Below are positions 12,899-19,377 of a DNA stretch of 51,220 bases, piece after piece. A program made the position numbers and the translations under genes. The notes beneath the pieces are model-generated. The model did no database searches and was not told where the DNA came from. It was given only the letters and a program-made list of their open reading frames with translations. Position 1 is the first letter of the stretch, and every line of letters begins with the position of its first letter. This DNA is from Bacteroidales bacterium (GTDB lineage: Bacteria > Bacteroidota > Bacteroidia > Bacteroidales > GWF2-38-335), in NCBI GenBank assembly GCA_016936815.1, contig JAFGXD010000143.1, positions 1 through 51,220 of the forward strand, given 5' to 3'.

Positions 12899-15800
12899 AT
12901 GCAAAACAAAGGAGCGATCAGGTTATTTGCAATTTTGCTGACCTTGGTTAGTATTTATCAGTTAACTTTTACATTCATAACCAACAGGGTTGAAAACACG
13001 GCAAAAAGTTTTGCTCAGGATTATTCTTATGCAGAAAAAGCAAAGCCGCTTATTGATTCAATTGTTAATTCAAACGGAAACCTTGAGGTTATTGATTATT
13101 GTGTAAATGCAATTAGAAATTTACAGCGTGATGTTCTTAAAATGAATGAGTTCAATTATCTTGATTCTATTCAAAGAGCAAAAGGAAATATGCAGGTAGT
13201 AAACAAATTTATTGATTCACTGGTTGTTATTCAGGATGAATTAGTTTACAGAAAAGAAAAAGCATATCTCGATAGTATGTCAAATGAGGTTGTTTATAAT
13301 TTCTTATGGCTAAGAAAATTCACTTACGAAGATTGTAAGAAACGTGAATTGAACCTTGGTCTCGACCTTAAAGGAGGTATGAACGTAACTCTTGAAATTT
13401 CTGTTGAAGATGTTATTAAAACTCTTGCAGGTCCTGTAAACAGTAAAGATCCTCTGTTTTTGGAAGCTATGAAAGAAGGCAAAGTTAAAATGAATACTGA
13501 TGGAGGAAATTTTGTAGATCATTTTGTTGAGGCATTTCAAAGGATTGGAAATGGTGCAGACATAAACTTCTTATTTCAAACATCAGGCTCAGGAAGTGTA
13601 ATAACAAATCAATCGACTGTTGCTGAGGTTCGCGATTACCTTGCTGAACAAGCACAAACAGCAATAGATAATTCTTTCAATATTTTAAGAAATCGTATAG
13701 ATAAGTTTGGTGTTACCCAACCTAATATCCAGCGTCTTGAAGGTAATTCAGGAAGAGTTATTGTTGAACTTCCCGGTATTAAAAATCCTGAAAGAGCTCT
13801 TAAGCTTCTCCAAAGTACAGCAAAACTAGAGTTTTGGGAAACTTATGAAAATAAAGATATTTTTCCGTATCTAAAAAAAGTTAACGATATTCATGTTAAA
13901 CTTAACAAACAGGAGAAAAAACCTGAAGTTGAATTACCTCTATTAGCCGAAGAAAAAAATGAAGATAATACAGGTGAAGAATTAGATACTACAAGTGAAA
14001 ATGATGATGTTGTTTCTCTTTTCAATGAGGAAGATACAATAAAAAATGAAAAAGATACTGCAAAAGCAGATTTGGGATTAGATGATGTTGATGAAACAGA
14101 AGGTGGAAAAATAGAAGACCAGCCTCTGTTTTCAATCTTAATTCCTCAAATTGCTAATAATAATCAGCCTGCAAGAGGTCCGGTTGTTGGTATGTCTTTG
14201 GGTCAAGATACTGCAAAGGTTATGAGAATGCTAAACCACGAGGAAGCAATGATTCACAGACCTATGGAAGTTATGTTCCGTTGGGAATATAAACCAAATT
14301 TAATGAAGGTTAGAACGGATAATGGAGGTGAGGAGGAAAAAGAGTATTATAATCTTATAGCCTTAAGAAAATCTACTCATACTGATAAAGCTCCTCTTGA
14401 AGGTGATGTAATTACAAGTGCAAGTGCCGACTATCATGGGAATTCTGCTATTGTTTATATGAGTATGAACTCAGAAGGTGCAACAGAATGGGCAAAACTT
14501 ACAAAGAAAAATATTGATCATGCCATTGCCATTGTTATGGATGGTGTTGTTTATTCTTATCCAAATGTTGAAAATGAAATTACCGGCGGCTCCTCACAGA
14601 TTTCCGGTAACTTTACCATTCAGGAAGCCAAAGACCTTGCAACTTTGCTAAATGCCGGTAAAATGCCCGCTCCTGCACATGTTGTTTCTTACGAAATAGT
14701 TGGACCATCATTGGGTAAAGAGGCTATTGATGCCGGTATTATGTCTTTCCTCTTTGCCTTTCTTTTGGTAATGATTTATATGGTTTTCTATTACAGCAGA
14801 AGAGCCGGTATGGTTGCTAACTTTGCTTTAATTGCAAACTTGTTCTTTATTTTTGGAGTTCTTGCTTCTCTTGGTGCAACTCTTACCCTCCCCGGTATTG
14901 CCGGTATTGTGCTTACAATAGGTATGTCGGTGGATGCTAACGTTCTTATTTATGAAAGAATTCGTGAAGAGATAGCCGCCGGAAAGGGACTGAAACTTGC
15001 TATTTCTCATGCTTATAGCTGGAAAGGTGCTATGTCAGCCATTATTGATGCTAACGTAACCACAATTCTTACCGGTATTATTCTTTATACTTTTGGCTCA
15101 GGACCTATTCAAGGGTTTGCAACTACCTTAATTATTGGTATTTTAACGTCTTTATTCTCAGCTATATTTATTACAAGATTGTTTTATGATTGGTTTATCA
15201 ATAAAAATTGGAAAATTACTTTCGATACCAAGATTACAAGAAATGCATTCAAAAATCTCAATATCCAATTTATTGAAAAAAGAAAAACTTTCTATGCAAT
15301 TTCAAGTATTGTTATTGTAATTGGATTGGGTTCGCTTTTTGTAAACGGTTTAAGTTTAGGTATTGACTTTAAAGGAGGTAGAAATTATGTAGTTAGATTC
15401 GATAAACCTGTTAGCCCATCTGAAATAAAAAAATCTTTAAAAGAGGTTTTTGGAGAATCGCCTGAGGTTAAAACTTTTGGAAAATCTAATCAGGTTAAAA
15501 TTACTACCAAATATAAAATTGACGATGAAGGAATCAATATTGAGAATGAAATTGATTCTCTAATGTTTGTTGGATTAAAATCTCAAATGTCCGAAGGTAT
15601 TACTTTAGAAAAATACAAACAAACAGATGAGACTAAAATGGAAGGTAAAATGAGCTCGCAAAAAGTCGGACCTACTATTGTTAGTGAAATTAAGGTAAGT
15701 GCGATTTATTCAATTGTTTTCTCCTTGTTAATTATGTTCCTTTATATTTTAATTAGATTTAGAAACTGGCAGTTTGGACTAGGTGCTACCGTGGCTCTAA

Positions 15801-16234
15801 TGCATGATGTTCTGTTTGTTCTGGGACTTTTCTCACTTCTTTATTCAATTATGCCTTTCTCAATGGAGATAGATCAGGCTTTTATAGCTGCTATTCTTAC
15901 TGTTGTTGGTTACTCACTTAACGATACTGTGGTTGTATTCGACCGTATTAGGGAGTTTGCAGGAATTCATACAAAGCGTGAGAGAAAAGATATAATGAAT
16001 ATGGCTATGAATTCTACTGTTTCCAGAACAGTTAATACATCTCTTACTACTTTTGTAGTGTTGCTTACAATTTTTATTTTTGGTGGTGAGGTAATTCGTG
16101 GATTTACTTTTGCTTTGCTTGTTGGTATTATTGTAGGAACTTATTCTTCATTGTTTGTTGCTACTCCTATTGTTTACGACACTATTAAACGTGCTGAAAA
16201 AATTAGGGTCATAAAAGGAAAGGCCATCAGATAA
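12899..16234 (+). CDS. secDF: Fused protein translocase subunit SecDF
   Basis: A 1111-residue SecD-SecF fusion, the proton-driven accessory of SecYEG that pulls proteins out on the periplasmic side. The SecD half has an N-terminal helix, LGLDLKGGMNVTLEI (about residue 155), a large periplasmic P1 region, and a six-helix RND-like domain with VDANVLIYERIREE. The SecF half begins near residue 800 and carries GIDFKGGRNYVVRF, VGPTIVSEI and GYSLNDTVVVFDRIRE. Asp and Arg residues in these motifs are the usual proton-relay positions. Fusion is normal for Bacteroidota. An acidic, low-complexity stretch of about 70 residues interrupts P1 (about residues 340-405). The gene ends before a strong terminator. 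Confidence 0.95.
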   Translation: MQNKGAIRLFAILLTLVSIYQLTFTFITNRVENTAKSFAQDYSYAEKAKPLIDSIVNSNGNLEVIDYCVNAIRNLQRDVLKMNEFNYLDSIQRAKGNMQVVNKFIDSLVVIQDELVYRKEKAYLDSMSNEVVYNFLWLRKFTYEDCKKRELNLGLDLKGGMNVTLEISVEDVIKTLAGPVNSKDPLFLEAMKEGKVKMNTDGGNFVDHFVEAFQRIGNGADINFLFQTSGSGSVITNQSTVAEVRDYLAEQAQTAIDNSFNILRNRIDKFGVTQPNIQRLEGNSGRVIVELPGIKNPERALKLLQSTAKLEFWETYENKDIFPYLKKVNDIHVKLNKQEKKPEVELPLLAEEKNEDNTGEELDTTSENDDVVSLFNEEDTIKNEKDTAKADLGLDDVDETEGGKIEDQPLFSILIPQIANNNQPARGPVVGMSLGQDTAKVMRMLNHEEAMIHRPMEVMFRWEYKPNLMKVRTDNGGEEEKEYYNLIALRKSTHTDKAPLEGDVITSASADYHGNSAIVYMSMNSEGATEWAKLTKKNIDHAIAIVMDGVVYSYPNVENEITGGSSQISGNFTIQEAKDLATLLNAGKMPAPAHVVSYEIVGPSLGKEAIDAGIMSFLFAFLLVMIYMVFYYSRRAGMVANFALIANLFFIFGVLASLGATLTLPGIAGIVLTIGMSVDANVLIYERIREEIAAGKGLKLAISHAYSWKGAMSAIIDANVTTILTGIILYTFGSGPIQGFATTLIIGILTSLFSAIFITRLFYDWFINKNWKITFDTKITRNAFKNLNIQFIEKRKTFYAISSIVIVIGLGSLFVNGLSLGIDFKGGRNYVVRFDKPVSPSEIKKSLKEVFGESPEVKTFGKSNQVKITTKYKIDDEGINIENEIDSLMFVGLKSQMSEGITLEKYKQTDETKMEGKMSSQKVGPTIVSEIKVSAIYSIVFSLLIMFLYILIRFRNWQFGLGATVALMHDVLFVLGLFSLLYSIMPFSMEIDQAFIAAILTVVGYSLNDTVVVFDRIREFAGIHTKRERKDIMNMAMNSTVSRTVNTSLTTFVVLLTIFIFGGEVIRGFTFALLVGIIVGTYSSLFVATPIVYDTIKRAEKIRVIKGKAIR

Positions 16235-16254
16235 TTTAATTTAATAATATTTTT

Positions 16255-16284
16255 AGCCTCGGTATTTTTCCGGGGCTTTTTTTT
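16255..16284 (+). terminator. Rho-independent terminator after secDF
   Basis: AGCCTCGG (16255-16262), loop TATTTTT, then CCGGGGCT (16270-16277) form an 8-bp stem with one G-T. A run of eight T follows (16277-16284). The last T is also the first base of the next promoter's -7 element. Confidence 0.85.
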
Positions 16285-16291
16285 ATATTTG
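16284..16291 (+). promoter_or_regulatory. -7 element merged with the secDF terminator
   Basis: TATATTTG fits TAnnTTTG exactly. It begins on the last T of the secDF terminator and ends only 3 bp before the ATG at 16295, so the predicted transcript would be leaderless or nearly so. No clear TTG is present about 20 bp upstream, where the terminator stem sits. Confidence 0.5.
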
Positions 16292-16294
16292 CGT

Positions 16295-17218
16295 ATGGAA
16301 TTCTTGCTATTGTTTGTAGGTTTAGCAATTTTGCTTGTGAGCGGCGATTTGCTTGTTCGCGGTGGCGTTGGACTAGCTAATAATTTTAAAATTTCGCGTC
16401 TTGTTATTGGGGTTACGGTAGTCTCTTTCGGAACTTCAGCGCCTGAACTTATTGTTAGTGTTAATGCTGCTATTAGCGGACATCCGGAAATTTCTATCGG
16501 TAACGTAATAGGCTCAAATATTGCTAATATTGCCCTTATTTTGGGAATTACAGCGGTTTTGTTACCAATTCCCGTAAATAGAACTTCCATTGTTGTTGAT
16601 TGGCCCGTTATGATGTTTGCAAGCTTGTTGTTTTGGTGGTTTGCTAATACCTCCGGAATTTTACAATCCTTCGAAGGAATTATTTTTGTTGTATTGCTTA
16701 TTGCATATATTATTTATTCAATAAAAAAATCTAAAGAACCCGAATTTAAGGATGAAACCAAAAAATCATATTCTTTATTATTATCCATTGGGTTTATTTT
16801 GGCTTCTTCCGTTGGACTCTATTTCGGATCGGATTTACTAGTAAATAATGCCGTAACAATTGCAACAAATTTAGATGTAAGCGAACATATTATCTCTGTT
16901 ACTATTATTGCTTTTGGTACTAGCGTACCAGAGCTTGCAACTTCAATTATTGCAGTTTACAAGAAAGAAACCGATATTTCAATTGGTAATATTATTGGAT
17001 CTAATATTTTTAATCTCTTCGCAATTTTAGGTATTACAAGTATTATTAAAGAAATCCCCGTAAGCATTAATGTTCTTAATAATGATATTTTTTGGATGCT
17101 AGGTATTGCTGCTGTCTTATTTCTTTTTATTATTCCACCAAAAAGAGGCCTTTTGAAGCGATGGAAAGGCGCTTGTCTGCTATTGATTTATTTTGTTTAC
17201 ATTTATTTACTATTTTAG
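16295..17218 (+). CDS. Calcium/sodium antiporter (CaCA family, YrbG-like)
   Basis: A 307-residue membrane protein of the Ca2+:cation antiporter superfamily with the two inverted alpha-repeats that form the ion pathway. Repeat one has [19 protein letters not shown] then [16 protein letters not shown] (about residues 35-90). Repeat two has [18 protein letters not shown] and [16 protein letters not shown] (about 200-250). About ten hydrophobic helices are visible. It probably exports Ca2+ in exchange for Na+. I chose the ATG at 16295 because [21 protein letters not shown] makes a complete first helix and the upstream TTG (16289) is inside the -7 element. First gene of a tight four-gene operon; lolD follows 4 bp later. 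Confidence 0.93.
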
Positions 17219-17222
17219 CAAA

Positions 17223-17879
17223 ATGATTTTAGCTGAAAATATTACCAAGAGTTATGGAAAGATTGATGTTCTAAAAGGCATTAATATTGAGGTGAAAAAA
17301 GGTGAAATTGTTTCTATTGTTGGCTCTAGCGGCGCCGGAAAAACTACTCTTCTGCAAATTTTAGGCACTCTTACTAGAAAAGATAAGGGCAATATAATTA
17401 TTAATAATACCAATTTAGATGCTCTTTCCGAAAAACAACTTGCCAGATTTAGAAACCTTAATCTCGGATTTGTCTTCCAGTTTCATCACCTTCTTCCGGA
17501 ATTTACTGCTTTGGAAAATGTATGCATCCCCGGTTTTATCGCTGGAAAATCAAAAACACAGGTTATTGAAAGAGCAAAAGAGCTTATTAATCACCTTAAT
17601 ATGTCGGAAAGACTTAATCACAAACCAGCTGAACTTTCAGGTGGCGAAAAACAAAGAATTGCTATTGCCAGAGCTTTAATTAATGAGCCTGAGGTTATTC
17701 TTGCCGACGAACCTTCAGGTAATCTCGATTCCCAAAATACCAAAGAACTTTACGAACTTATTACTAAATTGAGAGCGGAATTTAATCAAACTTTCGTTGT
17801 TGTTACTCACAATATTAAACTTGCTGAGGTTTCCGATAAGACTTATATTATTAATGATGGTTTGATTATTAATGGCTGA
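17223..17879 (+). CDS. lolD: ABC transporter ATP-binding protein, LolD-like
   Basis: A 218-residue ABC ATPase of the LolD/MacB type. Walker A is GSSGAGKT (34-41), the Q-loop region is [18 protein letters not shown], the signature is LSGGEKQR, Walker B is [12 protein letters not shown], and the H-loop is VVVTH. The [15 protein letters not shown] stretch is typical of LolD, which powers the release of outer-membrane lipoproteins from the inner membrane by LolCE. No lolC/lolE permease is adjacent, so the partner must be elsewhere. The start is the ATG at 17223, 4 bp after the exchanger stop; an upstream in-frame codon within the exchanger would add a non-homologous leader. The next gene starts 2 bp after its stop. 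Confidence 0.87.
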
Positions 17880-17881
17880 TA

Positions 17882-18658
17882 ATGTGTGAATTGATAAATA
17901 ATCCTTTAACTTTTATCCAACTTAAAGATTTTCTGGAATCCCGCACTATTCTTTATAACCAAAAGAGCTTTATTGAATCCGATCCAATACAAATTCCTCA
18001 TAAATTCAAAATAAAAGAAGATATTGAAATTGCAGGATTTCTCACTGCCACCATTGCTTGGGGTAATAGAAAGTCAATTATTAATAATGCTTTGAAATTA
18101 ATGGCATTAATGGATAATGCTCCTTATCAATTTCTTATGAATGCTAAAGCAAAAGATTATACAAGATTTTCAGGATTCGTACATCGTACTTTTAATTCTA
18201 CCGATTTGTTGTTTTTTCTTTCGGCTCTAAAAAATATCTACAAAAATCATTCAGGTCTCGAAAATGCTTTTATTGGAAACAATACCTTCCAACAAATTTC
18301 CTCATTTAGAAACTTGTTCTTCCAAACTGAACATTTTACAAGAAGTCAACGACATGTTTCCAACGTGACTAAAGGCTCAGCAGCAAAACGAATTAACATG
18401 TTCCTTAGATGGATGGTTAGAAAAGATGAAAATGGTGTGGATTTTGGCATTTGGAATAAACTTAAAACCTCCGATTTAATGATTCCGCTTGATGTACATT
18501 CAGGAAGGGTGGCTCGTAAACTAGGTCTTTTGCAAAGAAAACAAGACGATTGGAAAGCCGTTGTAGAACTTACTTCTAAACTTAGAGAATTTGACCCTAA
18601 TGATCCTGTTAAATACGATTATGCACTCTTTGGTGCAGGTGTTTTTGAAAAATTGTAA
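17882..18658 (+). CDS. TIGR02757 (DUF2400) family protein
   Basis: A 258-residue soluble protein matching the TIGR02757/DUF2400 family common in Bacteroidota and Spirochaetes. Recognisable features are DIEIAGFLTATIAWGNRKSIINN, the aromatic-rich YTRFSGFVHRTFNSTDL, the basic-Trp segment NMFLRWMVRKDENGVDFGIW, and the final PLDVHSGRVARKLGLLQRKQDDWKAVVELT..LREFDPNDPVKYDYALFG. The C-terminal half recalls HhH DNA glycosylases, but I cannot confirm a catalytic function. It is packed 2 bp after lolD and 2 bp before the methyltransferase gene, so it is co-transcribed. Confidence 0.85.
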   Translation: MCELINNPLTFIQLKDFLESRTILYNQKSFIESDPIQIPHKFKIKEDIEIAGFLTATIAWGNRKSIINNALKLMALMDNAPYQFLMNAKAKDYTRFSGFVHRTFNSTDLLFFLSALKNIYKNHSGLENAFIGNNTFQQISSFRNLFFQTEHFTRSQRHVSNVTKGSAAKRINMFLRWMVRKDENGVDFGIWNKLKTSDLMIPLDVHSGRVARKLGLLQRKQDDWKAVVELTSKLREFDPNDPVKYDYALFGAGVFEKL

Positions 18659-18660
18659 CT

Positions 18661-19377
18661 ATGCCAAATAATTATTTCCAATTTAAACTATTTAAAATAA
18701 ATCAGGATAAAACTGCCATGAAGGTTGGAACAGACGGAGTTTTGCTTGGTGCATGGACTAATTGTAATATTGCCACTAAGGTTCTGGATGTTGGAACAGG
18801 AACAGGACTTATTGCTTTAATGATGGCTCAACGGTCTAAAGCTATGATTGAGGCTGTTGAGATAGAAATTAATGCTTGGTTACAGGCAAAGACTAATTTC
18901 GAAAACTCCCCTTGGGCGTACAGATTAAAAGTTGAAAATGCTTCCTTTCAATCCTATTGTGATAAAGGCTTAGTAAAAATATATGATTTGATTGTCTGTA
19001 ATCCACCTTTTTTCAATAATTCATATAAACCCGAATCGCCGCAACGAGAAATTGCTCGTCACTCTATTTTGCTTTCTCCTCTAGATTTAGTAAGTGGAGT
19101 AAACCAATTACTTAAAGATGAAGGACTTTTCTCTGTTATTCTGCCTTTTTCAACTCATAAAGAATTTATTGAAATTGCTGAAAAAAATGACTTGTTTTGT
19201 TGCAGAATTACTATTGTTCGTCCTCTGCCTAATCTCGAACCACACAGGGTTTTAATGGAATTTAGAAAGCAGCAAATAAATTGTATTGAAAATAGTCTTT
19301 GTATTGAAACCGGTGAAAGACATCAGTATTCTGCTGATTATATTGAGCTTACAAAAGATTTTTATTTAAACTTTTAA
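18661..19377 (+). CDS. tRNA1(Val) (adenine(37)-N6)-methyltransferase-like (TrmN6/YfiC)
   Basis: A 238-residue class I SAM methyltransferase. KVGTDGVLLGAW near residue 20 and the SAM loop VLDVGTGTGLIALMMAQR are typical of the YfiC/TrmN6 family. The DLIVCNPPFF motif (N/DPPF) shows methylation of an exocyclic amino group, in E. coli A37 of tRNA-Val. Length and motif order fit the family. Last gene of the exchanger-lolD operon. Its final 12 bp overlap the 3' end of the convergent Ste24-like protease gene (19366-19377), with no terminator between. Confidence 0.88.
   Translation: MPNNYFQFKLFKINQDKTAMKVGTDGVLLGAWTNCNIATKVLDVGTGTGLIALMMAQRSKAMIEAVEIEINAWLQAKTNFENSPWAYRLKVENASFQSYCDKGLVKIYDLIVCNPPFFNNSYKPESPQREIARHSILLSPLDLVSGVNQLLKDEGLFSVILPFSTHKEFIEIAEKNDLFCCRITIVRPLPNLEPHRVLMEFRKQQINCIENSLCIETGERHQYSADYIELTKDFYLNF

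Follow-up and report, generated by a model that had tools for sequence, protein, structure and literature searches.

In the window, the 51,220-nucleotide stretch of DNA from a Bacteroidales bacterium analysed here, the stop signal of secDF merges directly into the probable promoter of the next gene, which encodes a calcium/sodium antiporter (the exchanger). Checking the sequence base by base confirmed this arrangement, which leaves no space for the usual untranslated leader. Each part of the junction is of a known kind; what is unusual is a start site that straddles the AUG. We give about even chances to the explanation that an ancestral promoter, fused to the terminator, lost its leader together with a tatA gene, and that the exchanger is made from a leaderless RNA starting at A16295, perhaps with some readthrough from secDF.

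Anatomy of the junction

The features of the junction, the genes around it and the comparable sites in the same genome are collected in Table 1. The sequence-only reading had placed the hairpin, the T8 tract, TATATTTG and the ATG, and all of these positions proved exact. The stem arms of the hairpin are AGCCTCGG and CCGGGGCT, 20 nt 3' of the secDF stop codon, so that a G+C-rich hairpin and then a T-tract follow the stop, as in an intrinsic terminator. The hairpin region folds with a z-score of -2.76 and was the best among six sites found by a simple terminator scan of 10 kb, a scan that is non-discriminating by itself because 5.9 sites are expected in shuffled sequence. The T8 tract coincides with the T-rich zone found just 5' of the -7 element in the sampled promoters of this genome. 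Only CGT separates TATATTTG from the exchanger ATG, giving a spacer of 3 nt.

Table 1. Features of the secDF-exchanger junction, its genes and comparable sites in the same genome
Feature	Position	Strand	Remarks
secDF (fused SecD-SecF translocase), upstream gene	12899..16234	+	NCBIfam NF009585, 1298 bits (cut-off 1037)
secDF stop codon TAA	16232-16234		
Terminator hairpin	16255-16277	+	8 pairs (6 G-C, 1 G-U), loop TATTTTT
T8 tract of terminator	16277-16284	+	last T is first base of -7 element
Probable -7 element TATATTTG	16284-16291	+	matches TAHHTTTG, Bacteroidota primary sigma factor
Exchanger ATG	16295-16297		
Candidate +1 bases	A16295 (spacer 3), U16296 (spacer 4), G16297 (spacer 5)	+	
Calcium/sodium antiporter (exchanger), 307 aa	16295..17218	+	TIGR00367, 238 bits (cut-off 180); Na_Ca_ex PF01699
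LolD-like ABC ATP-binding protein, second gene of unit	17223..17879	+	TIGR02211, 269.9 bits (below cut-off 307.75)
TIGR02757 family gene, third of unit	17882..18658	+	TIGR02757, 242 bits (cut-off 139)
TrmN-like methyltransferase gene, fourth of unit	18661..19377	+	NF047853, 231 bits (below cut-off 350)
Other fused case, own genome	L089 gene 10825-11214	-	
Other fused case, own genome	L093 (7850)		
Spacer-4 genes, G000 sample (1)	L005 11304; L018 443; L089 13665; L111 16893-18041 (-)		
Spacer-4 genes, G000 sample (2)	L115 14379; L119 532-1005 (-); L120 1811-2371 (-); L120 5944		
Spacer-4 genes, G000 sample (3)	L125 2648; L126 2783-4363 (-); L158 10259		

A second exchanger paralogue, 41% identical, lies at G000:C156:34585-35514 and is preceded by TAATTTTG and a short leader.

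The exchanger start codon

Homology supports the earlier view that the N-terminus of the exchanger is fixed. The ATG of relatives stands exactly at projected residue 1 in 38/63 cases and no more than two codons away in 56/63, which makes ATG 16295 very likely to be the true start. Several of these exchangers open alike, with MEY or MDY for instance, and continue into the same first helix. An upstream TTG start at 16289, which falls inside the -7 element, was set aside. Translation could also begin at an in-frame downstream non-AUG codon, since TTG occurs at codons 4 and 6 (16304 and 16310) and would leave a leader of 7-15 nt, but the position of the ATG in relatives makes this very improbable. 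The exchanger's context for leadered initiation ranks at the 11th percentile among 705 genes, close to the median for internal ATGs, and a leadered start is thus a poor fit.

Spacing between -7 elements and start codons

Our sample of the genome comprised the window and 80 stretches from 80 contigs (1,097,953 bases of ~3.58 Mb). It yielded 718 open reading frames (ORFs), of which 705 had 150 bases upstream; some of their starts will be wrong, because length and the first ATG, rather than a trained gene finder, defined the ORFs. In these 705 regions, TAHHTTTG before the ATG forms a broad hump at 10-45 nt; at a distance of exactly 4 nt there is also a sharp peak, with 11 genes carrying it against 0.72 expected (P = 3e-10). 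The chance rate was taken from distances of 60-141 to the ATG, where the exact motif occurs about 0.72 times per position per 705 genes, so that a match within spacers 0-9 would arise by chance in ~1% of genes. These distances and internal in-frame ATGs served as further controls; an antisense upstream control is partly unsuitable, because divergent promoters may occur there.

Many -7 elements of Flavobacterium johnsoniae are described as lying 4 or 5 nt from the transcription start (PMC6847099), and we therefore read spacer 4 as putting +1 on the A of the AUG, which would make these genes a leaderless class. They are functionally mixed, with a DAP epimerase, a pseudouridine synthase and a histidine kinase among them (Pfam scan of 9 of the 11). 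The only same-genus relative, G001, has spacer 4 in 3/254 upstream regions, and in ten further genomes of the order it is seen in 1/273, with two more genes at spacer 5.

Spacer 3 was seen once in 1232 upstream regions (705 from this genome, 254 from G001 and 273 from the ten order-level genomes), and that case is the exchanger itself, a count that taken alone is not above chance (0.72 expected). The exchanger thus differs from the 4-nt spacing of this genome's leaderless genes, and a leaderless reading is plausible, yet one base off the genome's own rule. Upstream regions were examined for 35 of 65 exchanger loci, the window's included; in nine of them an exact TAHHTTTG lies no farther than 130 nt away, and all except the window's have spacers of at least 12.

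An assembly error or strain difference might account for the missing base, in which case the true spacer would be 4 and the gene would belong to the leaderless class like the others. The sharp preference for spacer 4 and the rarity of spacer 3 speak for this, but CGT is no homopolymer and no conflicting sequence turned up, the region being represented by a single contig; we regard such a difference as most unlikely.

Evidence for the -7 element

TATATTTG has the TAHHTTTG core of the Bacteroidota primary-sigma promoter. A motif model for which the 705 upstream regions, the exchanger's included, served as training set scores it at 13.0 bits, a value attained by a fraction 8e-5 of the positions lying farther than 55 nt upstream. 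The motif posterior for the spacer-3 site is 0.86-0.98, varying with the spacing prior; the exchanger's own share was removed from that prior for the value of 0.86 and for the smoothed values. Outside the core the context is ordinary to weak, at the 19th percentile of sampled promoters and the 91st of intragenic look-alikes. No clear -33 element is visible upstream of TATATTTG; according to PMC6847099, this motif is hardly evident in F. johnsoniae either. No second exact match to TAHHTTTG begins anywhere from 16106 to 16283.

Further promoter candidates in the interval from secDF to the ATG, including TATTTTTC in the hairpin loop and TATTTTTA at 16247, each had a posterior below 0.04 with every prior. 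A scan for E. coli-type promoters was set aside, having returned 46 sites against 39.4 expected in shuffles.

The secDF 3' end in relatives

We examined 61 secDF 3' ends: the window's own, 57 from relatives found by genome search and three named records. A hairpin followed by T5 or more lies within 140 nt at 49/61 (the window and 48 relatives). In 7 of these 48 relatives (L134, L148, L150, L153, L226, L227 and L231) an exact TAHHTTTG is fused or nearly fused to the terminator, at -1 to +2 from the end of the T-run, an offset range that was chosen after the first cases had been seen; in the other 41 the exact fused element is absent. By comparison, 19/560 T-runs without a hairpin upstream of genes carry such an element (P = 0.001), a null rate taken from the window's own genome that may differ in others. 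The hairpin rules were loosened (loops up to 23, one mismatch), which admits L153 (loop 18) and L226 (loop 17); the count without these two is 5 of at most 48. The sequence-only reading had named conservation of neither hairpin nor -7 element as an outcome that would speak against it; in fact the hairpin position recurs, and the fused -7 element is found in a minority of relatives.

In five of the seven (L134, L150, L153, L227 and L231) a TatA-like protein is encoded behind the fused element, with spacers of 14-38 nt, while L226 and L148 have other ORFs there, at 30 and 153 nt. The TatA label rests on a profile for the L134 and L052 proteins together with a genome search, and for the others also on the appearance of the sequence. 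In G042, secDF is followed by terminator, TATATTTG, 28 nt, tatA and exchanger; JAADFW010000037 (L052) and Prolixibacter (L054, L066) likewise have secDF, terminator, promoter, tatA and exchanger. G010, which has no tatA, has secDF, terminator, TACCTTTG, 19 nt and exchanger. In G001 the exchanger is absent and a lolD-like gene directly follows the secDF terminator and TATCTTTA, which is without the nearly invariant G. TatA matches lie 66-820 bp upstream of the exchanger in 8/60 relatives searched (G053, G038, G016, G008, G015, G035, G032 and G042). No tatA stands between secDF and the exchanger in the window, and the single TatA match in its genome is on a different contig, C189. This comparison suggests that a small gene, tatA, and a leader formerly lay between terminator and exchanger, and their loss in the window's lineage would be the simplest history.

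Two further kinds of site were noted. At the secDF 3' ends of G049 and G034 (L149 and L235) an exact TAHHTTTG lies within the terminator hairpin itself. In the Flavobacteriia-like records L055, L057 and L061, TATCTTCG, with C replacing the third T, occurs shortly before the exchanger ATG.

The comparison also bears on whether TATATTTG could be a chance match, with the exchanger operon being an attenuated extension of secDF transcription. The chance rate of about 1% of genes, the first T supplied free by the T-tract and the lack of an exact element in G001 speak for plain readthrough of this kind. The fused elements in relatives and a motif posterior of at least 0.86 tell against it, however, as does the fact that the same layout is kept by unrelated hairpin sequences, with a lolD-like gene, tatA or the exchanger behind them. 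We consider plain readthrough rather unlikely, and the suggestion that the -7 element is a decoy is disfavoured; TATATTTG is probably a real -7 element.

Start base and proposed mechanism

At the exchanger, distances of 3, 4 and 5 nt from the element lead to A, U and G, respectively. In E. coli the modal start is 7 bp downstream of the -10 element, and moving the start one base upstream of the mode is reported to cost 1.8 kcal/mol, against 0.7 for one base downstream (PMC5730371); in Bacteroides thetaiotaomicron, purines are described as preferred first bases (PMC7366714). We took TAnnTT as the -10 equivalent, which makes spacer 4 the modal position, and assumed that the E. coli energetics are transferable to this polymerase. 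By these published rules the main start would be U16296 or G16297, inside the AUG, with A16295 one base early, which agrees with the earlier expectation of a +1 at or within the start codon when the usual spacing applies. Since the exchanger is one base short of spacer 4, an RNA with a canonical start would have lost its AUG instead of opening with it, and the two energies would favour G16297 over A16295. With U16296 modal and flanked by the purines A16295 and G16297, a mixture of starts is to be expected, in which only the A16295 RNA would carry the AUG.

The sequence-only reading offered three options, namely a leaderless mRNA, a decoy -7 element with readthrough or unusually close initiation, and these are the right ones. 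In the explanation that we put first, the ancestral layout would have been secDF, terminator, promoter, tatA, exchanger and lolD-like gene, with TATATTTG retained as a genuine primary-sigma element whose first T, like the T-rich stretch just 5' of it, comes from the terminator T-tract. With the loss of tatA and the leader, the exchanger ATG would have come to stand 3 nt from TATATTTG, leaving RNA polymerase to choose among A16295, U16296 and G16297. An intact 5'-terminal AUG could come only from A16295, and this leaderless RNA would most likely be what the exchanger is translated from, with an efficiency that is probably low. Readthrough of the secDF terminator may be a supplement, and transcripts from G16297 would still carry the downstream genes.

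In the main rival explanation, the promoter would be real and yet start mainly at U16296 or G16297, its AUG-less RNA serving the lolD-like and later genes while the exchanger is made mostly by readthrough from secDF. Both the published spacing (PMC6847099, PMC5730371) and this genome's spacer-4 class place +1 past A16295, and the gene order of G001 fits a promoter of this kind. Against this, a terminator with 8 pairs and T8 should limit readthrough, the readthrough RNA has the poor leadered context described above and its AUG sits in a weak A/U hairpin; moreover, the base just upstream is a purine, A, on which transcription could start. We judge such a division of labour possible, though well short of probable.

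Start-site switching is known from pyrC/carAB-type promoters of E. coli, where, as would be the case here, translatability depends on which of several neighbouring bases is used as the start. The difference is that the choice, hypothetical in this case, would determine whether the start codon itself is part of the RNA. That the promoter straddles the AUG deliberately, with the choice between A16295 and G16297 (set, for example, by ATP and GTP levels) switching the exchanger on and off within its operon and polymerase released at the secDF terminator feeding the promoter, seems to us improbable.

Related arrangements and known systems

In the window's own genome, 3/21 hairpin T-runs are fused to an element against 19/560, a weak difference with the window counted in (P = 0.04). 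A terminator T-tract fused to TATTTTTG precedes L093 7850-11305 and L181 1767-5222 of G001, so that both species of the genus have it; the two are similar genes for a large secreted protein, with PKD, trypsin-like and sorting domains found in that of L093 (Pfam). The literature that we searched for terminator-promoter overlap in Bacteroidota contained no instance, although one may nonetheless be in print.

Primary-sigma promoters of Bacteroidota are described as having TAHHTTTG at -12 to -5, the start following after 4-5 nt (PMC6847099). The junction resembles them in its exact core, the pyrimidine after the G and the T-rich stretch just upstream; it differs in that this T-rich part is the terminator T-tract and in having no clear -33 element. 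Roughly 3.7% of 5' UTRs in B. thetaiotaomicron are given as shorter than 10 nt (PMC7366714), and leaderless or near-leaderless mRNAs in F. psychrophilum as 5.5% (PMC9723704). As in such mRNAs, the -7 element here stands immediately before the ATG and leaves no room for a leader; the spacer, however, is 3 rather than the 4 of this genome's class, and the usual +1 would fall inside the AUG. E. coli polymerase that stays on the DNA after intrinsic termination is reported to restart nearby in vitro (PMC6978380). Here too a terminator and a promoter lie within reach of a retained polymerase, but that work used separate elements in vitro, whereas these are fused and come from Bacteroidota.

Significance

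The junction provides a concrete and testable case of a leader that would have been lost through gene deletion, with the usual start site then lying inside the start codon. Gene finders and promoter predictors alike would mis-handle such junctions if they require a leader. Bases can be shared between an intrinsic terminator and a promoter at one locus across several families of one order, which is relevant to the question of whether a polymerase set free by termination begins again close by.
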